From Alphaproteobacteria bacterium (GTDB lineage: Bacteria > Pseudomonadota > Alphaproteobacteria > Bin65): a stretch of 64,000 nucleotides of DNA. The notes below the pieces were generated by a model that worked only from the letters and a program-made list of their open reading frames with translations, did no database searches and was not told where the DNA came from. The position numbers were made by a program, and so were the translations under genes. Each line of letters begins with the position of its first letter. Positions within the stretch are counted from its first letter, which is position 1. The DNA lies in assembly GCA_021776685.1 (NCBI GenBank), contig JAJFFJ010000004.1, positions 1 to 64,000 of the forward strand, in the 5' to 3' direction. Positions 5,054-31,339 of the stretch are shown one piece after another.

Positions 5054-5971
5054 ATGACCGTTTCCTGGAATGGCGTCTTTCCGGCGCTGATGACCGAGTT
5101 TCACGAGGACGAATCCCTCGATCTCGACAGCACCGCCCGACATATCGATGGGATGATCGACGCAGGATGCACCGGCATCATTCTCCTCGGCACCCTTGGC
5201 GAGAACGTCTCGCTGCGTGCCGAGGAAAAGCGCGAGGTGCTGCGCATGGGCGTGGACGCGGTCGGTGGTCGGGTTCCCTTGCTCACGGGTACGGCCGAGT
5301 ACACGGCGGCGCAGGCGATCGAACATCTCAGTGACGCGGCCAAGATCGGCTGCGACGGCGCCATGTTGCTGCCGCCGATGGTCTATGGCACCGCGCGGGA
5401 AGAGACGCTGGATCACTTCCGCACCTGCGGCGCGGCGAGCGACCTGCCGATCATGATTTACAACAACCCGGTCAGCTACAAGACCGACGTGACGCCGGAG
5501 ATGTTTGCCGAACTGTCGGATGTGCCCGCCCTGGTCGCGCTCAAGGAAAGCTCCGACGACACGCGGCGGATCACCGACATCCAGGCGCTGACGGGCGACC
5601 GCTATACGGTCTTCTGCGGCGTCGATGACCTGATCGTCGAAGCCATGGCCGTGGGCGCCGCCGGCTGGGTGGCGGGATTGGTCAATGCCTTCCCCACGGA
5701 GTCCGTTCAACTCTATGACCTCGTCAAAGCGGGGCGCATGGAAGAAGCCCGGGCGATCTATCGCTGGTTCATGCCCATGCTGCATCTCGACTGCCTGCCC
5801 AAGCTGGTCCAGTACATCAAGCTGGCGAACCAGATGACAGGCCTCGGCAGCGAGTGGGTCCGGCGGCCGCGGATGCCGCTGGCGGGCGATGAGCGCGAGC
5901 GCATCGCCGCCATCATTCAAAAAGGCATCGATACCCGCCCGCAGCTGGCGACAGATCTGGCGGCTGAATAG
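5054..5971 (+). CDS. Dihydrodipicolinate synthase/N-acetylneuraminate lyase (DapA) family protein
   Basis: The protein of 305 residues is a class I (Schiff-base) TIM-barrel lyase. Visible family marks are the carboxylate-binding loop GTLGEN at 46-51 (usually GTTGE), the catalytic tyrosine in IMIYNNP (Y136) and the Schiff-base lysine in ALKESSDD (K164). It is unlikely to be the biosynthetic DapA: it sits in a putative catabolic operon with a GST (21-nt gap) and a polysaccharide-deacetylase homologue. Relatives include pyrroline-4-hydroxy-2-carboxylate deaminase of hydroxyproline breakdown, of interest given the racemase at 10262, but they are 5 kb apart. The precise substrate stays open. Confidence 0.85.
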   Translation: MTVSWNGVFPALMTEFHEDESLDLDSTARHIDGMIDAGCTGIILLGTLGENVSLRAEEKREVLRMGVDAVGGRVPLLTGTAEYTAAQAIEHLSDAAKIGCDGAMLLPPMVYGTAREETLDHFRTCGAASDLPIMIYNNPVSYKTDVTPEMFAELSDVPALVALKESSDDTRRITDIQALTGDRYTVFCGVDDLIVEAMAVGAAGWVAGLVNAFPTESVQLYDLVKAGRMEEARAIYRWFMPMLHLDCLPKLVQYIKLANQMTGLGSEWVRRPRMPLAGDERERIAAIIQKGIDTRPQLATDLAAE

Positions 5972-5991
5972 GCCCCGAGAAAAGGAAAACC

Positions 5992-6603
5992 ATGCATCTC
6001 TACCACTGCAACCGGGCGCGCTCGATGCGCGTTGTCTGGACATTCGAGGAAATGGGCCTCGACTATGACGTCACCGTCATGCCCTTCCCGCCGCGGGTGC
6101 TCCACAAGGAATTCAAACAGGTCAATCCGCTCGGCACGATCCCCTACCTGATCGACGGCGAGACGGAAATGAGCGAGAGCGCGGCCTGCTGTCAGTATAT
6201 CGTCCAGAAATACGGGCCGACCGATCTGAACGTCTTACCGGACGAGACGCCCGCCTATGGCGAGTTTCTCAACTGGCTGTATCGTGCCGACGCGACCCTC
6301 GCCTTTCCGCTGACCCTCGTCTGGCGCTACACGGACCTCGAGCCCGAAGAACGGCTCAGCCCGCAGGTGGCGGAGGACTATCGCATCTGGTTCCTGGCCC
6401 GCTGGCGCTCTGTCGACACCGTTTTCGCGGATGGGCGGGAGTGGCTCTGTGGCGACCGCTTCACCATCGCTGACATCTGCGTCGGCTGGTCCCTGATGTT
6501 TTCCCAGAACCTCGGTGTCACCGAGGCGGTCACCGACAACGTCAGGCCGTGGTGGGACCGCCTGCAGGCCCGCCCGGCCTACCAGCGGTCGCTGGAAGTC
6601 TAA
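5992..6603 (+). CDS. Glutathione S-transferase
   Basis: The 203-residue protein has an N-terminal thioredoxin-like domain. It opens with MHLYHCNRARSMRVVWTFEE, where C6/S11 lie in the usual catalytic region. NPLGTIPYLIDGE carries the cis-proline, and SESAACCQYI carries the glutathione-binding glutamate-serine (ES) pair. An all-helical C-terminal domain with the N-capping segment GDRFTIADICVGW follows. An AAAGGAAA ribosome-binding site precedes the ATG. It probably conjugates or isomerises a substrate using glutathione in the cytoplasm. Its place between the lyase and the deacetylase suggests one transcript. Confidence 0.88.
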   Translation: MHLYHCNRARSMRVVWTFEEMGLDYDVTVMPFPPRVLHKEFKQVNPLGTIPYLIDGETEMSESAACCQYIVQKYGPTDLNVLPDETPAYGEFLNWLYRADATLAFPLTLVWRYTDLEPEERLSPQVAEDYRIWFLARWRSVDTVFADGREWLCGDRFTIADICVGWSLMFSQNLGVTEAVTDNVRPWWDRLQARPAYQRSLEV

Positions 6604-6667
6604 CCGCGGCGCGTTGACGGCAGGGACAGCCTACACCACACGATTCCAAGCAGGAGGCACGGCCAGG

Positions 6668-7537
6668 ATGGAACCCAGGACCTATGGACCTTTTCCGTAT
6701 ACCGCCAGCATCGACCGGCCGAAGCTGAGCCTTCCAGACGGCGCGCAGCTGGCGTTGTGGGTGGCGCCCAATATCGAGTTCTTTCCACTCGACGAGAAAG
6801 TCTTCTACGGGTCCGGCTTCGTGCCCGATGTCCTGGCCTGGTCAAACCGCGACTATGGCAACCGGGTGGGCATCTTCCGCATCATGGACGTGCTTGACCG
6901 GCATGGCGTGCGCGCCACCGTGGCGCTCAACAGCGATGTCTGTATCCACCATGGCCGGATCATCGAGGAGGCGCAGAAGCGCGACTGGGAGTTGATGGCG
7001 CACAACCAAAGCAACAGTCGTCCGCTCAACCAGATCCCGGAAGGAAAAGAGTGGGACGAGATCAACGGCGCGCTCAACCAGATCGAAAAGACCAGCGGAA
7101 CACGCCCGCGAGGCTGGCTGAGCGGCGGGCTGATCGAAACCTGGGACACCCTTGACCATCTGGCCGCCGCCGGCTGCGACTATGTCTGTGACTGGGTCAA
7201 CGACGACCAGCCCTACATGGTGGATGTGGGCGACAAGCAGCTGGTGTCGATCCCCTATTCCAGCGAGACCAATGACTTTGGCGCATTCGTCCGGTGGGGC
7301 CTGTCACCCGCAGACTTCGACCAGCAGCTGCGCCGGCAATTCGACGTGCTCTACCGGGAAGGCGAGACCTCAGGCAAGGTGATGGCGATCTGCCTGCATC
7401 CCTTCCTGATCGGACACCCGCACCGCATCGGTTGCCTCGACAGCGCCCTGGAATACATCTGCGGCCATGACGGTGTCTGGCTCGCCACCGGCAGCGAAAT
7501 CGTCGACCACTACCTGGCGTCGGGGCCAACTGTCTGA
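6668..7537 (+). CDS. Polysaccharide deacetylase (NodB/PuuE-like) family protein
   Basis: The 289-residue product resembles the allantoinase/PuuE branch of carbohydrate esterase family 4. Supporting segments are HGVRATVALNSDVC, the region WELMAHNQSNSRPL around a metal-site histidine, GWLSGGLIETWDTLDHLAAAG and the late ICLHPFLIGHPHRIG. ATG 6668 follows an AGGAGG-like stretch (gcaggaggcac, 6650-6660) and is preferred over longer in-frame starts that overlap the GST gene. Members act on C-N bonds of amides and cyclic imides as well as on sugars. With a DapA-type lyase and a GST upstream, a small-molecule amidohydrolase role is more likely than cell-wall work. Confidence 0.83.
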   Translation: MEPRTYGPFPYTASIDRPKLSLPDGAQLALWVAPNIEFFPLDEKVFYGSGFVPDVLAWSNRDYGNRVGIFRIMDVLDRHGVRATVALNSDVCIHHGRIIEEAQKRDWELMAHNQSNSRPLNQIPEGKEWDEINGALNQIEKTSGTRPRGWLSGGLIETWDTLDHLAAAGCDYVCDWVNDDQPYMVDVGDKQLVSIPYSSETNDFGAFVRWGLSPADFDQQLRRQFDVLYREGETSGKVMAICLHPFLIGHPHRIGCLDSALEYICGHDGVWLATGSEIVDHYLASGPTV

Positions 7538-19958: not shown

Positions 19959-20708
19959 TTAGCCTACCAGCGGAGTCAGGTTCAGGCGCTCAACGGCGGC
20001 GCTCATCGCGAAACTGCGGCGGCGGCGGCCCAGGCGGCTGCGCCGGCTGAGCCCCGGTAGATGCAGCGTGTCCACAGGCAGGTCCACCCGTCCGTCCACT
20101 TCGCCGCCCGCCCGGGTTGTGAGGCCACCGAAGCCGGCCATGAGGGCGAGAAGCCCCCGGTTCTCCGCCAATCCAACGTAGCGGATGGCGGGCAGACGCC
20201 GTTGCCGGGCATCGGCCACAGCCTCTTCCACCAGGCGCCTGCCAATGCCGCGCCGCTGCCAGCCAGCTTCCACGGAAACCGCAAGCTCAGCCGCACCCTC
20301 CAGCCATGACACATCAGGCCAGGCCAGATGAACCACGCCCCGAAGAACACCATCTTCAATCCACCCAAACAGCGACGTGGTCTCCCAGTCGATTCGCTCG
20401 ATTGACCGGGCAATCATCCGGTCGGGAGCAGAATGGGCAAATCGAAGGCGCCGGTCCTCGTTTGAAAGGCGCAACAGATGGTCGAGATAGCCCCGCGCGT
20501 GATCCATTTCCAGACGGCCAATCCCATCGTTGGGCGGAGTACGGTCGCCGCGGCCCGGCATCATTGGCGCGCTCGTGCGGTGTGCAAGGGGCGCGCCGCC
20601 ATCAATGGTCGGGTCGGTGGCCCAGCCGCTTAGCAAAGATCGCCGCCCAAAATTGGACGAACGTTCGTTCTTTTTTCGGCGGGCGTTTGGCGTCTCTTGG
20701 ATAAACAT
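19959..20708 (-). CDS. GNAT-family N-acetyltransferase
   Basis: The domain occupies the middle of the frame: LRLSNEDRRLRFAH (start of the fold), a substrate strand region and the acetyl-CoA loop EAGWQRRGIGRRLVEEAV (Q/R-x-x-G-x-G/A). The C-terminal 60 residues are basic and unusual. Two starts compete. ATG 20708 has a GGAG site 7 nt upstream, but it places the palindrome ACGAACGTTCGT (20657-20668) inside codons 14-18. ATG 20564 puts that operator upstream but lacks a good ribosome-binding site. The preceding TetR gene and the shared palindrome imply TetR control. Confidence 0.7.
   Translation of the reverse strand: MFIQETPNARRKKNERSSNFGRRSLLSGWATDPTIDGGAPLAHRTSAPMMPGRGDRTPPNDGIGRLEMDHARGYLDHLLRLSNEDRRLRFAHSAPDRMIARSIERIDWETTSLFGWIEDGVLRGVVHLAWPDVSWLEGAAELAVSVEAGWQRRGIGRRLVEEAVADARQRRLPAIRYVGLAENRGLLALMAGFGGLTTRAGGEVDGRVDLPVDTLHLPGLSRRSRLGRRRRSFAMSAAVERLNLTPLVG
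20657..20668. promoter_or_regulatory. Palindrome ACGAACGTTCGT, candidate TetR operator (GNAT copy)
   Basis: A perfect 12-bp palindrome identical to the one at 21361-21372. It lies near the 5' end of the GNAT gene. Matching copies on either side of one TetR gene are strong evidence for an operator. Confidence 0.65.
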
Positions 20709-20749: not shown

Positions 20750-21346
20750 TCAGTGAGGCGCCAAAGCGTCTGTGATCAGACGCACAAAAGCAGCGCGGGT
20801 CCACCTGGCTGCGTCAGTCTGGCCCATCAGCCGGTGGCCATTGTGAAAGCCCAGTTCGATGGCATAGGCATCGAAGGCAAACTGGGCAGGGTCGAGATCT
20901 GTGCGGAACTCGCCCGCGTCGATGGCCTGCTGCGCGGCGCGTGACAGATAGCTTTGCCACAACGCCAATGCGTCTTGTACGGCGTCGCGCACCGGGCCTT
21001 CGCGGTCGTCCCATTCCACAGCAGCCGCCACGAAAGGGCAGCCGCCCACATAGCCATTGGTGCTGGCCCAGGCCAGCCAGTTTTCGGACAGCGCTTCCAA
21101 GCGTTTTCGGCCCGTGAATTTGCGCGCCGGCGCTACAACTTCGAAAATGAACTCAGTGCGTACAGCTTCCAGCACAGCAAGCTGCAGTGCTTCCTTGGAA
21201 CCGAAATGGGCGAACAGGCCGCTCTTCGACATGCCGGAGTGGGAGGCCAATGCGCCAATCGTCAGACCCTCAAGCCCGCCGACGCTGGCAAGGTCGGTCG
21301 CCTGGCGCAAAATCTGGTCCCGTGTTGCTTTACCTTTGCTCATCAT
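20750..21346 (-). CDS. TetR-family transcriptional repressor
   Basis: The 198-residue protein has a standard TetR N-terminus: ATRDQILRQATDLASVGGLEGLTIGALASHSGMSKSGLFAHFGSKEAL, with the HTH at about residues 29-50. A ligand-binding helical C-terminus with WDDREGPVRDAVQDALALW follows. The start is ATG 21346 or 21343. A 12-bp palindrome lies 15 bp upstream, consistent with autorepression, and a second copy lies at the downstream GNAT gene. It follows nicC by 54 nt. I see no copy of the palindrome at the nicX promoter, so a role in nicotinate control is unproven. Confidence 0.88.
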   Translation of the reverse strand: MMSKGKATRDQILRQATDLASVGGLEGLTIGALASHSGMSKSGLFAHFGSKEALQLAVLEAVRTEFIFEVVAPARKFTGRKRLEALSENWLAWASTNGYVGGCPFVAAAVEWDDREGPVRDAVQDALALWQSYLSRAAQQAIDAGEFRTDLDPAQFAFDAYAIELGFHNGHRLMGQTDAARWTRAAFVRLITDALAPH

Positions 21347-21360
21347 GCACCATAAATAGA

Positions 21361-21372
21361 ACGAACGTTCGT
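21361..21372. promoter_or_regulatory. Palindrome ACGAACGTTCGT, candidate TetR operator (autoregulatory copy)
   Basis: A perfect 12-bp palindrome in the short gap between the nicC stop (21401) and the tetR start (21346). It is identical to the copy at 20657-20668. Position fits a promoter-blocking operator. Confidence 0.68.
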
Positions 21373-21400: not shown

Positions 21401-22549
21401 TCAGTCGCCCGGTTGCACCAGCGGCTCGGTGAAAACGTCATAGGCAAACACCCAGTCGGGATCGCTGGTTTCCTGGTATTGCAGCCAGTCATTGTTGTGG
21501 CTGTAGTGCTGCACCTTGGCGGTGCGCTCCTGGCGGTTGGCGATATAGAGGCGGAATGCGGCGTCGAAATCCGTCGGCTGATCGCCGATGCACCGGGCCA
21601 ACATGGCGGCGTCCTCAATCGCCATGGCCCCGCCCTGCCCCATGTGGGGTTTCATGGGGTGGCAGGCGTCGCCGAGCATGACGATGGGGCCTTCGCTCCA
21701 CAGCTCAAACGGCTTGCGCTCAAGGATGGCCCAATTCAGCACCTTGTCCACCTGGCTGAGCAGCAGCTGAACCTCGTCATGATAGCCGTCAAAATGGCCA
21801 CGGAGCTCGTTCGGATCACCGTCATAGACCCACTCCTCGCGCGGCCAATCGGGCTCCGGCACGCCGGTGACGAAGTAGATGTAGGAGCGGTCGGCCTTGA
21901 TGTAGTAGACGACGATATGGCTTTCCGGATGCCACCACTTGGTGTCGTCGTCGAAAATATGGCCGTTGTAGCGGTCCATCGGGATCATCGCCCGGTGCGC
22001 CACGTGGCCGGTATAGATCGGCTCCTCCGGTCCGGCCAGTATCTCGCGCACCTTGGAATGGACCCCGTCTGCGCCGATGACGATGTCGGCCTCCGCCGTC
22101 GTGCCATCCTGGAATGACAGGGTGGTGCCGCCAGCGCCCTTCTCCATGCCCACAAGCTTCTTATCCAGATGCAGCCGTTGCTGATCCACCGCGCCCACCA
22201 GTTCCACCGCCAGGTCGCCTCGATGCACGGTCAGATAAGGGGAGCCAAATTTTTCCTCCGCCACATCGCCGAGCGTATAGTCGAGTGTAACCTTGCCGGT
22301 ATCCCAGTCGCGGCTCAGCCATTCACGTGGCCTGGAACCGACAGCCACCAGTGCATCGAGAATGCCGATCCGGTCAAGGACGCGGGTAACATTGGGGCTC
22401 AGGTGGATGCCGGCGCCCAGCGGCGTAATCTGCGGTGTCTGCTCATAGATCTCCGGGGTGTAGCCCTGCTGCTGCAACAGGCTGGCAACCGCGCAGCCGC
22501 CAAGCCCGGCGCCCACGATCGCAATTCTTACGTCGGATTTTTCGCTCAT
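21401..22549 (-). CDS. nicC: 6-hydroxynicotinate 3-monooxygenase (NicC)
   Basis: The 382-residue FAD monooxygenase has the dinucleotide motif GAGLGG at 13-18, IVIGADGVHSKVREIL in the middle and the second FAD motif GDACHPMKPHMGQGGAMAIEDA. It closely follows remembered Pseudomonas putida NicC: LGAGIHLSPNV, SPYLTVHRGDL, KWWHPESHIVVYY and the terminal DPDWVFAYD. NicC converts 6-hydroxynicotinate, with NADH and O2, to 2,5-dihydroxypyridine, CO2 and formate-free product. Its neighbours nicD and nicX catalyse the next two steps, which strengthens the call over salicylate hydroxylase. It is third in the nicX-nicD-nicC transcript. Confidence 0.9.
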   Translation of the reverse strand: MSEKSDVRIAIVGAGLGGCAVASLLQQQGYTPEIYEQTPQITPLGAGIHLSPNVTRVLDRIGILDALVAVGSRPREWLSRDWDTGKVTLDYTLGDVAEEKFGSPYLTVHRGDLAVELVGAVDQQRLHLDKKLVGMEKGAGGTTLSFQDGTTAEADIVIGADGVHSKVREILAGPEEPIYTGHVAHRAMIPMDRYNGHIFDDDTKWWHPESHIVVYYIKADRSYIYFVTGVPEPDWPREEWVYDGDPNELRGHFDGYHDEVQLLLSQVDKVLNWAILERKPFELWSEGPIVMLGDACHPMKPHMGQGGAMAIEDAAMLARCIGDQPTDFDAAFRLYIANRQERTAKVQHYSHNNDWLQYQETSDPDWVFAYDVFTEPLVQPGD

Positions 22550-22578
22550 GTGTTGGGTTCACTCCCCGATGAATTGCG

Positions 22579-23382
22579 TCATATCACGCGTCCGACAAAG
22601 CTCTCGACCGTGTCGATGAAAGTTTCAAGATCATCCCAGGGAATCATGTGCCCAACGCCATCGATACGCACACTGCGGCAGTCAGGAATCAAGGTGCAGA
22701 TTTCCACCGCATCGTCATCGGTGACGGTGCCCCCCTGCTCGGCATAGATCAGCAGCGTCGGTGTGGGCGCCTTCGGCATCAGGACATGGATGTCCTCTTC
22801 ATGGAATGAGGCATGGGATTGGGCGATTGCCACCGGGTCACAGGTGGGCAGCCACTGATCGCGCTGGGCGATCTGCTCCTCGGTCCATTTGGCCAGAAGC
22901 GGGTTGGAGGTATCGGTGGGTTCACCGCGGCAAGCCGCCGCCAGACCATCGAGATACCATTGCAGCGGCACCGGATAGTCGCGTCTGCCCGGTCCCGTCA
23001 CGGGCGGATCCACGAGGATCAACGGCCCCACTGCGTCCGGCGCGTCGGCCGCCAGGCGCAGCGCAATACGCGCGCCCATGGAATGGCCAAGGATGACCGG
23101 ATTCTGCAGGCCCAACTGGGCAATCACGGCTGCCGTATCCGCAGCACAGGCGCCCAGGTCATAACTCAGCTCCGCGCCGCCGGAGGACAGACCACGCCCC
23201 CGAATATCGAGGGTGAATACATGGGAGAAAGCCGCAAGCCGGCGACTGACAAAATCCCAGGATATTGCCGGGCTGGTGATGCCGGGCAACAACACCAGCG
23301 ACGGACCTTCGCCCTGGTATTCAAGATGGTGCAGGCGCACATCGCCCACCATCAAATGTCGACCCCGTGGTTGCATCTGCAT
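22579..23382 (-). CDS. nicD: N-formylmaleamate deformylase (NicD)
   Basis: The 267-residue alpha/beta-hydrolase is read from ATG 23382, which has GAGGTGA upstream; a GTG at 23388 is the alternative. With this start the triad is S101 (GHSMGAR), D125 (LVDPP) and H245 (GVGHMIPWDDL), the same positions I recall for P. putida NicD. Further shared blocks are LLPGITSPAISWDFV and LDIRGRGLSS. The enzyme hydrolyses N-formylmaleamate to maleamate and formate in the cytoplasm. It starts 14 nt after nicX and precedes nicC by 29 nt, so the three form one operon. Confidence 0.92.
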   Translation of the reverse strand: MQMQPRGRHLMVGDVRLHHLEYQGEGPSLVLLPGITSPAISWDFVSRRLAAFSHVFTLDIRGRGLSSGGAELSYDLGACAADTAAVIAQLGLQNPVILGHSMGARIALRLAADAPDAVGPLILVDPPVTGPGRRDYPVPLQWYLDGLAAACRGEPTDTSNPLLAKWTEEQIAQRDQWLPTCDPVAIAQSHASFHEEDIHVLMPKAPTPTLLIYAEQGGTVTDDDAVEICTLIPDCRSVRIDGVGHMIPWDDLETFIDTVESFVGRVI

Positions 23383-23396
23383 GGTCACCTCACGCC

Positions 23397-24434
23397 TCAG
23401 GCCGTCGCCTTCATCTCGGGCGGAACTACATCTCCGTCCTTGATGATGACCTCACCATCGAGCGTTAGGGTGCAACCGCGCAGCGGCATGTCCAGATGGC
23501 AGGGAGTGTCGTTGTCGCCGCCCAGTTCCGTGTTCGGGCCGGTCGAAAACAGCACGTTGCCATAGTAGCTGAGCGCGTCCATGCCCAGCTCCTGGTGTGG
23601 GTTCGCCACCGCCATATGGTGCCAGTCCGCCAGCTCGTTCAGGCCCCAGCCAATGTGGGAAATCGCATAGGCCTTCTCGTCGAACTTGGCCATGTAGTTG
23701 CGGATCAGCGCCGCATCCAGCCCGTCTCCCTGGATATCTGTGACAAAGCCTTTCTCGATGGTCAGCTCGACCGGGTTCTGGATATAGCGGCGGAATGCAC
23801 AGACGATGTCCCCCGGCGCCAGCACCACCTTGCCGTCAACCCCGTCCGGATGCCCGCCGGTGAACATGAAGCCTGAAGGCCAGTGGTCCCAGCGGCCTGG
23901 AGTGTCGGTATAGCCATACTCGGTCATGACCGGGAATGCGCCCAACCGGTAGGTCACGTCCGTGCCGGCAGGTGACGTGATATGCATCTCCTGCGCGTTG
24001 CCCAGCAATTGTTCGCCCACCTCGACCCGGCGGCGAAGATCCTCGTTGGGGAACAGGCGGGTCAGCACCTCAATCGGCTCCACCACCAGCAACATGCGGG
24101 TGCCGGTGGCGGTGATTTCGTTCTGCTCCTGGGAGAACAGCAACAGCATAAGGTCGATGACCAGATCCGCCGATTTAAGGGCTTCGATCACGGACCGGTT
24201 GCCGGCGATCGGCGTCTGGCCAAAATTGCCGGCAAAGCCACCATGCTGCGGCGGCCGCGGCACGGTCACCTGAAAGGCGGTCGCGCCCAGCTGCTGGGCA
24301 GCAAGCAGAAAGGCCTGGGCAAAGTCCAGCCGTGCCTCTCCGTCCGAAAGCACTGCCACCGTTTCCTCCGGTGTCACCCGGCACAGTTCCAGCTCACGCC
24401 GGAAAAGCTCGACCATGCTTGCGTCCGCTGGCAT
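23397..24434 (-). CDS. nicX: 2,5-dihydroxypyridine 5,6-dioxygenase (NicX)
   Basis: The protein has 345 residues. The mononuclear Fe(II) ligands expected for NicX are visible as H260 (ISHIGWGL) and H313-x-D315 (TPCHLDMPLRG), each offset by five from H265, H318 and D320 of the P. putida enzyme as I remember it. Other shared segments are MTEYGYTDTPGRWDHWPSGFMF and FSTGPNTELGG. NicX splits the ring of 2,5-dihydroxypyridine with O2 to N-formylmaleamate. ATG 24434 is supported by GGAGG six bases upstream. It is the first gene of the operon and is divergent from the ExbB gene. Confidence 0.93.
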   Translation of the reverse strand: MPADASMVELFRRELELCRVTPEETVAVLSDGEARLDFAQAFLLAAQQLGATAFQVTVPRPPQHGGFAGNFGQTPIAGNRSVIEALKSADLVIDLMLLLFSQEQNEITATGTRMLLVVEPIEVLTRLFPNEDLRRRVEVGEQLLGNAQEMHITSPAGTDVTYRLGAFPVMTEYGYTDTPGRWDHWPSGFMFTGGHPDGVDGKVVLAPGDIVCAFRRYIQNPVELTIEKGFVTDIQGDGLDAALIRNYMAKFDEKAYAISHIGWGLNELADWHHMAVANPHQELGMDALSYYGNVLFSTGPNTELGGDNDTPCHLDMPLRGCTLTLDGEVIIKDGDVVPPEMKATA

Positions 24435-24481
24435 GCTGCCTCCTGAAAAATTGCCCGGATTGCGGCGAAAATCTTCACGCT

Positions 24482-24509
24482 ATTGTGACGCCCAGACCCC
24501 GCCGGTCAA
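24482..24509 (-). promoter_or_regulatory. Candidate promoter of the nicXDC operon
   Basis: On the minus strand TTGACC (24509-24504) is followed after 16 nt by CACAAT (24487-24482). The predicted transcript would start near 24475 and leave a leader of about 40 nt before nicX. Confidence 0.35.
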
Positions 24510-24587
24510 GGCGCAAGCCTGTTTGTCAGCTGCCAAATCTGGCGCTACGTTGCGCATCCGAATTGGCGCGTGCAGGAGCAACCCCCT

Positions 24588-27325: not shown

Positions 27326-28324
27326 ATGGGTCATCTCGACAACGGCCAATGGGTCGATGACTGGGGCATGGAAAAAAAGACCCTGGATGGCAAATTCCAG
27401 CGGGTGGACGCGGGCTTTCGCAACTGGGTGACGGCTGACGGCAGCGCCGGCCCCTCAGGTGAAGGCGGCTTCCCCGCCGCATCGGGGCGCTACCATCTTT
27501 ACGTCTCCTGGGCCTGCCCCTGGGCGCACCGGACGCTGATCTTCCGCGCTCTCAAGGGCCTGACGCCCCATATCACCGTCTCGGCAGTCCATTGGGAAAT
27601 GCACAGCGACGGCTGGACCTTCAAGGACGGGCCGGATGTGATCCCGGACGACGTGAATGGCTGCAATTTCATTTGGCAGGTCTATGCAAAGGCCAAACCG
27701 GACTATACCGGCCGGGCAAGCGTGCCAGTCCTGTGGGATCGGGAGCGGGAGACCATCGTCTCCAACGAATCGTCCGAAATCATCCGCATGTTTTACGGAG
27801 CCTTCGATGATCTCGATGGCGTCGACACCTCGATTGATTACTATCCCGAACACATGCGGGCGGAAATTGACCGGGTTAACGACCGTGTCTTCAACACTCT
27901 GAACAATGGCGTATACCGCTCCGGCTTTGCCATGACCCAAGACGCCTATATGGAGGCGGTCACCGAATTGTTCGACACGATGGAATGGCTGGAGGGGTTG
28001 CTGGCCGATCGACGCTATATCGCCGGCGATCAGGTGACTGAAGCGGACTGGCGTTTGTTCCCGACGCTGATCCGGTTTGACCCGGTCTACTTCGGCCACT
28101 TCAAATGCAATCGCAAACGGCTGATCGACTATCCGAACCTGTGGAACTACACGCGTGAGCTTTATCAGTGGCCGGGCCTCGCGGAGACCACTAACCATTT
28201 CCATATCAAGCACCACTATTACGCCAGCCACGTCACCGTAAATCCGACCCTGATTGTTCCCAAGGGTCCGGACATCGATTTTGACGCTCCGCACGATCGG
28301 GAGCGCCTGCCCAAGGCTGCGTAA
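27326..28324 (+). CDS. Glutathionyl-hydroquinone reductase (YqjG/PcpF-type GST), copy 1
   Basis: The 332-residue protein is longer than ordinary GSTs, as expected for the xi/omega class that reduces glutathionyl-hydroquinones. The nucleophilic C64 lies in SWACPWAHRT; other family marks are FRNWVTADGSAGPSGEGGF, LWDRERETIVSNESSEIIRM and the C-terminal ADWRLFPTLIRFDPVYFGHFKCN. A GGGAGAA site precedes ATG 27326. The enzyme restores hydroquinones from glutathione adducts, often in quinone or chlorophenol metabolism. A paralogue with C64 in the same frame lies at 30344. Confidence 0.92.
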   Translation: MGHLDNGQWVDDWGMEKKTLDGKFQRVDAGFRNWVTADGSAGPSGEGGFPAASGRYHLYVSWACPWAHRTLIFRALKGLTPHITVSAVHWEMHSDGWTFKDGPDVIPDDVNGCNFIWQVYAKAKPDYTGRASVPVLWDRERETIVSNESSEIIRMFYGAFDDLDGVDTSIDYYPEHMRAEIDRVNDRVFNTLNNGVYRSGFAMTQDAYMEAVTELFDTMEWLEGLLADRRYIAGDQVTEADWRLFPTLIRFDPVYFGHFKCNRKRLIDYPNLWNYTRELYQWPGLAETTNHFHIKHHYYASHVTVNPTLIVPKGPDIDFDAPHDRERLPKAA

Positions 28325-30343: not shown

Positions 30344-31339
30344 ATGGGCCAGATGATCGACGGTGTATGGCATACGGAAGACCTTCCCGTAGCCGACGCC
30401 AAGACCGGCGAGTTCAAGCGCAAGGCGTCAACCTTCCGCAATTGGATTACGCCTGACGGCAGCCCAGGTCCTTCAGGTGAGGGCGGCTTCGCCGCTGAAT
30501 CCGGGCGCTATCACCTTTACGTCTCGTGGAGTTGCCCGTGGGCCCACCGCACCCGACTGATGCGGACTCTCAAGGGATTGGAAGACCATATCGGTCTCTC
30601 CATTACCGCCACCCGCCGCAACGACGAAGGCTGGTATTTCATCGACGATGACGACGGCGCCCGCGACCATGTCTATGGCAAGACCGCAATTCACGAATTC
30701 TACAGTTGGGCCGACCCGACCTTCACCGGCAGGGTGACGGTACCGGTACTGTGGGACAAACAACGTGAGACGCTGGTCAACAACGAGAGCAGCGAAATCA
30801 TTCAGATGTTCAACAGCGCATTTGCAGGCCTGCCCGGCGTCTCGGATCTGGACCTCTATCCGGCCGACCTGCGCGGCGAGATCGACGCCGTCAACGACGA
30901 CATCTACGAGAACCTCAACAATGGTGTCTATCGCGCCGGATTTGCCGCTAACCAGGAAGCCTATGACGCTGCCGTGCCGCGCGTCTTCGCCTGCCTGGAC
31001 CGGCTGGAGGAACGTCTCGCGACACGCCGATATCTGTGCGGCGATCAGCAGACACTGGCGGACTGGCGCGCTTTCCCAACATTGGTGCGCTTCGACGCCT
31101 GCTATGTGGGCGCCTTCAAATGCAACCTGCGGCGGCTGGTGGACTACCCCAACCTGTGGGCTTACACCCGCGATCTCTATCAGTCCCACCCGGGTCTTGC
31201 CGAGAGCGTCCAGCCGGGGCTCTTCGCCTATGGCTACTACTCCCACGGCATCCGCAATCCGCTGGGGATCGTGCCGGTCGGCCCGGAGATCGATTTCACC
31301 GAACCCCACGGACGCGAAGCGTTGGCGCAAGCGGCCTAG
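30344..31339 (+). CDS. Glutathionyl-hydroquinone reductase, copy 2
   Basis: The 331-residue paralogue of the gene at 27326 has C64 again in SWSCPWAHRT and the same order of marks (FRNWITPDGSPGPSGEGGF, LWDKQRETLVNNESSEIIQM, ADWRAFPTLVRFDACYVGAFKCN). The two are plainly homologous yet well diverged at protein level, so the duplication is not recent. ATG 30344 follows GGAGGG at 30329-30334. A terminator directly follows it. Confidence 0.92.
   Translation: MGQMIDGVWHTEDLPVADAKTGEFKRKASTFRNWITPDGSPGPSGEGGFAAESGRYHLYVSWSCPWAHRTRLMRTLKGLEDHIGLSITATRRNDEGWYFIDDDDGARDHVYGKTAIHEFYSWADPTFTGRVTVPVLWDKQRETLVNNESSEIIQMFNSAFAGLPGVSDLDLYPADLRGEIDAVNDDIYENLNNGVYRAGFAANQEAYDAAVPRVFACLDRLEERLATRRYLCGDQQTLADWRAFPTLVRFDACYVGAFKCNLRRLVDYPNLWAYTRDLYQSHPGLAESVQPGLFAYGYYSHGIRNPLGIVPVGPEIDFTEPHGREALAQAA

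Follow-up and report, generated by a model that had tools for sequence, protein, structure and literature searches.

A nicX-nicD-nicC unit, separated from the usual first and last genes, that probably serves the middle steps of aerobic nicotinate degradation in an alphaproteobacterium

In Pseudomonas putida KT2440, nicotinate is degraded via 6-hydroxynicotinate and 2,5-dihydroxypyridine by the products of the nic cluster, whose regulator is the MarR-type NicR. The ndpHFEG-D and vpp clusters of sphingomonads, which serve a variant pathway for nicotine, likewise have NicD and NicX as neighbors feeding maleamate; unlike the locus described here, they include an HspB-type monooxygenase making 2,5-dihydroxypyridine and carry nicE and nicF inside the cluster. 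The nicBA-amidase-nicX-nicC loci of Sphingomonas formosensis and Sphingobium arseniciresistens (L045, L048) share with our locus the NicX sub-clade, a NicC gene beside or near NicX, and the lack of nicE and nicF, but differ from it in that NicAB is present, a MetX-like hydrolase and an amidase lie close by, NicC has Gly at position 47, and nicD is missing.

The locus lies in a window of 64,000 nt (the whole stretch of DNA that was analyzed) from contig C82 of a 4.54-Mb alphaproteobacterial assembly that is 98.9% complete. It encodes the same middle three enzyme types as the KT2440 cluster, with catalytic residues kept, and departs from that cluster in the absence of adjacent nicA, nicB, nicE, and nicF, the gene order X-D-C, an Arg293Leu change in NicX, a NicC outside the core clade, and a TetR neighbor with its own likely operator in place of a MarR-type NicR. 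The initial annotation had placed nicX, nicD, and nicC at positions 21401–24434, with which the open reading frames and best solved matches agreed. It had also reported that nicA, nicB, nicE, and nicF were absent from the window; this was borne out by a search of all 64,000 nt, nor did any fragments of these genes turn up near the triad.

Table 1. Features of the triad locus (window positions).
Feature	Position	Strand	Description
nicX	23397-24434	-	First gene of the unit; predicted 2,5-dihydroxypyridine 5,6-dioxygenase, 345 aa
nicD	22579-23388	-	Alpha/beta hydrolase, predicted to be an N-formylmaleamate deformylase; start at GTG 23388 or, more likely, ATG 23382
nicC	21401-22549	-	Predicted flavin-dependent decarboxylative hydroxylase, 6-hydroxynicotinate 3-monooxygenase type, 382 aa
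Divergent intergenic region	24435-24569	-	Expected site of the nicX promoter; weak sigma-70-like match at 24509-24482
tetR	20750-21346	-	Next downstream gene; TetR-family regulator (Pfam TetR_N, TetR_C_13) with own promoter

All three head-to-tail reading frames on the minus strand are intact, catalytic residues included, and each start is preceded by a purine-rich ribosome-binding site: CAGGAGGCAGCATG for nicX, GAGGTGACCATG for nicD, and GGGGAG for nicC. The nicX stop is separated by 14 bases from the likelier nicD start, and nicD by 29 bases from nicC; with this order and spacing, the genes fit a single transcription unit. A sigma-70-like scan of the nicX upstream region returned one weak match, against 1.6 expected by chance. 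A misplaced contig was rejected on two grounds: the base composition of the triad (60–63% G+C) matches that of its surroundings, and ruvA-, ruvB-, ftsH-, and glmM-like genes (named by eye) are present on the same 74-kb contig.

The neighboring tetR probably lies outside the nic unit. Its promoter, TTGACA-17-TATTTA, contains the palindrome ACGAACGTTCGT at 21361–21372, and the 4.54-Mb genome holds exactly one other exact copy, at 20657–20668, which precedes an acetyltransferase gene, so that the two copies flank tetR. The palindrome is predicted to be the TetR operator, through which TetR likely controls itself and the acetyltransferase gene. Because there is no copy in the region upstream of nicX, TetR is unlikely to act on the nic genes and was rejected as their regulator. 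Elsewhere in the window, DapA-like, glutathione-transferase-like, and polysaccharide-deacetylase-like genes stand in a row at 5054–7537, the last of them 39% identical to a counterpart on contig C52, and two similar glutathione-transferase-like genes, which by eye look like the glutathionyl-hydroquinone reductase type, lie 2 kb apart at 27326–28324 and 30344–31339.

The closest solved relative of the window's NicX is 7cn3, the 2,5-dihydroxypyridine dioxygenase NicX of P. putida (E 3e-96). All four iron ligands are kept (H260, S297, H313, and D315, equivalent to P. putida His265, Ser302, His318, and Asp320), as are E172 (Glu177) and H184 (His189), at positions that bind 2,5-dihydroxypyridine in 7cn3. 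The substrate residue His105 is replaced by Phe100, and Arg293 by Leu288. The numbers first assigned to H260, H313, and D315 are correct; the accompanying statement that all active-site residues were intact held for the iron ligands, including the unlisted S297, and not for these two replacements. Phenylalanine at the His105 position also occurs in nearly all alphaproteobacterial and actinobacterial homologs and, being the common state in full nic clusters, was rejected as a sign of altered specificity. The Arg293 change is rare and clade-specific: the window's NicX and eight other sequences form a Leu293 clade of single origin (94/94 in the tree), whose members differ in their upstream oxygenase. 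The prediction that the window's NicX opens the 2,5-dihydroxypyridine ring to N-formylmaleamate is well supported. Another NicX-like gene (G000:C76:26857-27864), with homologs in most family relatives, adjoins a PcaD-like hydrolase; at 40% identity and with Gly at the Glu177 position it belongs to a different branch, and it was rejected as a second NicX.

NicD is closest among solved proteins to the deformylase 4l0c (E 2e-61, with the next solved match at E 2e-14). Its Ser-Asp-His triad is kept, and the numbering S101, D125, and H245 given earlier is correct when counted from the ATG. The gene is the only close copy in the genome, the next best being 29% identical, and its predicted role of freeing formate to leave maleamate is likewise well supported.

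For NicC, the closest solved relative is the 6-hydroxynicotinate 3-monooxygenase 5eow (E 2e-110, 373 bits), ahead of tropone 2-monooxygenase (241 bits), 4bjy (153), and 5evy (131). Salicylate hydroxylase, closer kinship to which the initial annotation had named as evidence against its assignment, reached about 131 bits against the 373 for NicC. Neither this enzyme nor 3-hydroxybenzoate hydroxylase is thus the nearest solved relative. His47, His211, Tyr215, and His302 are kept, a combination that the window's enzyme alone retains among divergent NicC proteins; Cys202 is replaced by Asp and M213 by V. Its identity to 5eow is 48%, compared with 63–72% for NicC proteins from full nic clusters, and in the tree it falls outside the clade of the latter on a long branch whose exact place is unsure. 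In Aspergillus HxnX, retention of His211 and Tyr215 alone suffices for this step (PMC9304392), so the changes in the window's NicC do not exclude 6-hydroxynicotinate. Because the enzyme lies outside the full-cluster clade, 6-hydroxynicotinate is no more than its likely substrate. Of the route originally proposed, from 6-hydroxynicotinate to maleamate plus formate, sequence comparison supports the half from 2,5-dihydroxypyridine onward well, and entry at 6-hydroxynicotinate is the inferred half.

The initial annotation had further suggested that the host may have the remaining genes elsewhere. No NicAB ortholog was found in the 4.54-Mb, 98.9% complete genome; the best match to Rhizobium NicB shared 28% identity and lacked the fused cytochrome part, which has matches elsewhere in the genome. 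Within this assembly NicAB is therefore missing, and 6-hydroxynicotinate would be taken up or made by another molybdenum hydroxylase. The molybdenum-binding domain has 25 matches in the genome. Of these, 19 were scanned with NCBIfam at a strict limit; all names assigned were of the xanthine dehydrogenase, 4-hydroxybenzoyl-CoA reductase, CO-dehydrogenase, or glyceraldehyde-dehydrogenase kind, none was nicotinate-specific, and no nicotinate hydroxylase could be picked out among them. For the later steps candidates were found, namely a NicF-type enzyme on contig C52 and a possible two-cysteine isomerase on C57. The former (C52:41192-41839), the NicF type among ten isochorismatase-family genes, is 56% identical to Bordetella NicF (3uao), keeps D, K, and C, and matches 3ot4/3uao at E 4e-69. 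The C57 protein is the only one of five arylmalonate-decarboxylase/maleate-isomerase-family members with both NicE-aligned cysteines; its identity to NicE is only 26%, and it bears a resemblance to arylmalonate decarboxylase as well. On C52, the NicF-type gene comes after a monooxygenase (best solved relatives PnpA and HspB) and before a racemase-family gene whose product lacks both cysteines and was rejected as a maleate isomerase.

Two further gene groups were noted in passing. A run on C97 (L134:7530-12782) comprises a LeuC/LeuD-like hydratase pair, a PrpB-like lyase, two deacetylase-like proteins, and a member of the isochorismatase family; it might encode a hydratase route of the maleate or citraconate type. 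The short contigs L125 (C16) and L127 (C64) carry near-identical clusters of deacetylase-like, isochorismatase, transporter, and FAD monooxygenase genes, which would reflect either recent duplication or the assembly of strain variants.

Both the NicF-type gene (73–77% identical) and the C57 protein (64–69%) recur in eight of ten family relatives, and among relatives carrying them none has a window-type NicX (best about 40%). The two gene types are kept in relatives without the triad and so are not present because of it. They belong to a conserved cluster (L126:10415-14136 on C52 and L124:9549-11924 on C57; L313, L314, and L315 in relatives) containing an HspB/PnpA-like monooxygenase, the NicF-type amidohydrolase, two racemase-family proteins, a polysaccharide-deacetylase-like protein, and an ABC transporter; in relatives G002 and G003, the two racemase-family genes, the NicF-type gene, and the monooxygenase share one locus. 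From its gene content, this cluster looks like an amide or N-heterocycle pathway. It is thus a separate unit with another main role, whose products the triad may borrow.

Across 80 NicX loci compared from the genome collection, NicD adjoins NicX and a NicF-type gene is close by in most, and many also have NicA, NicB, NicC, and NicE. NicX and NicD occur without NicF in the window and likewise, within 8 kb, on Variovorax plasmid L269. The nearest NicX (L044, 73%) sits with a gentisate-dioxygenase-like gene, a transporter, and a divergent NicC, without NicD. L045 and L048 contain NicBA, an amidase, a MetX-like hydrolase (by eye; alpha/beta hydrolase in Pfam), and NicC. On plasmids, members of the Leu293 clade are accompanied either by monooxygenases of the HpaB type or by a hydroxylase of the xanthine-dehydrogenase type together with a different flavin monooxygenase. 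Judged from these varied neighbors, the ring-opening core is a module with exchangeable upstream enzymes. In clusters without nicD, the MetX-like hydrolase adjoins NicX (L045:7397-9696, L048, L231:8295-9314), and the amidase is also present in L045 and L048; the pair is a candidate unrelated replacement for NicD and NicF.

We consider it probable that the triad is one transcription unit covering the middle steps of aerobic nicotinate degradation, with NicAB missing and maleamate handled by genes on distant contigs. NicC would replace the carboxyl group of 6-hydroxynicotinate, or of a close 6-hydroxypyridine relative, with a hydroxyl, yielding 2,5-dihydroxypyridine; NicX would open this ring to N-formylmaleamate, which NicD would split into maleamate and formate. 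Maleamate would then probably pass to the C52 NicF-type amidohydrolase and the C57 two-cysteine isomerase of the separate, family-conserved cluster. The 6-hydroxynicotinate itself would be taken up ready-made or supplied by some other molybdenum hydroxylase, of which the genome has about 25.

A different hydroxypyridine is a possible, though somewhat unlikely, substrate: NicC would then act on a related 6-hydroxypyridine bearing a different substituent, and the dihydroxypyridine formed would be processed by NicX and NicD. The lack of NicAB in the genome, the placement of NicC outside the true-NicC clade, and the company kept by other Leu293-clade members (the plasmid-borne oxygenases above, or NicAB with a divergent NicC) are consistent with this, but the full set of His47, His211, Tyr215, and His302 in NicC, unique among divergent NicC proteins, and the retained iron ligands, Glu172, and His184 of NicX argue for the nicotinate route. 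A broader and more tentative idea, which we regard as unlikely, is that the Leu293 clade is a ring-cleavage module for dihydroxypyridines beyond or besides the nicotinate-derived one, the X-D-C triad being its portable form serving a still unnamed N-heterocycle; the literature consulted for this analysis yielded no substrate tests for members of the clade.

The C52 monooxygenase, most similar to PnpA and HspB and located beside the NicF-type gene, might instead be the main source of 2,5-dihydroxypyridine, as in nicotine-degrading sphingomonads, whose ndpHFEG-D clusters bring such gene types together (PMC5343071). The genes on C52, C57, and C82 would then form one scattered pathway. That arrangement appears improbable, as the C52 cluster is present in relatives without window-type NicX or NicD and shows no more than about 30% identity to the sphingomonad enzymes. 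Decay of a full nic cluster into a remnant whose pathway no longer works would account for a contig without A, B, E, and F and for family relatives without the triad, but we find it very improbable in view of the three intact frames with catalytic residues and ribosome-binding sites, the lack of nearby gene remains, and an X-D-C order that cannot be obtained by deleting genes from the fetched clusters.

On the preferred reading, that of a unit for the middle of the nicotinate pathway, the triad would be a modest rearranged version of a known pathway, with the known chemistry unchanged. The analysis flags a Leu293 sub-clade of NicX with an altered active-site residue, useful when annotating N-heterocycle catabolism, and shows the ring-opening core of nicotinate degradation deployed as a module separate from the enzymes that normally come first and last.
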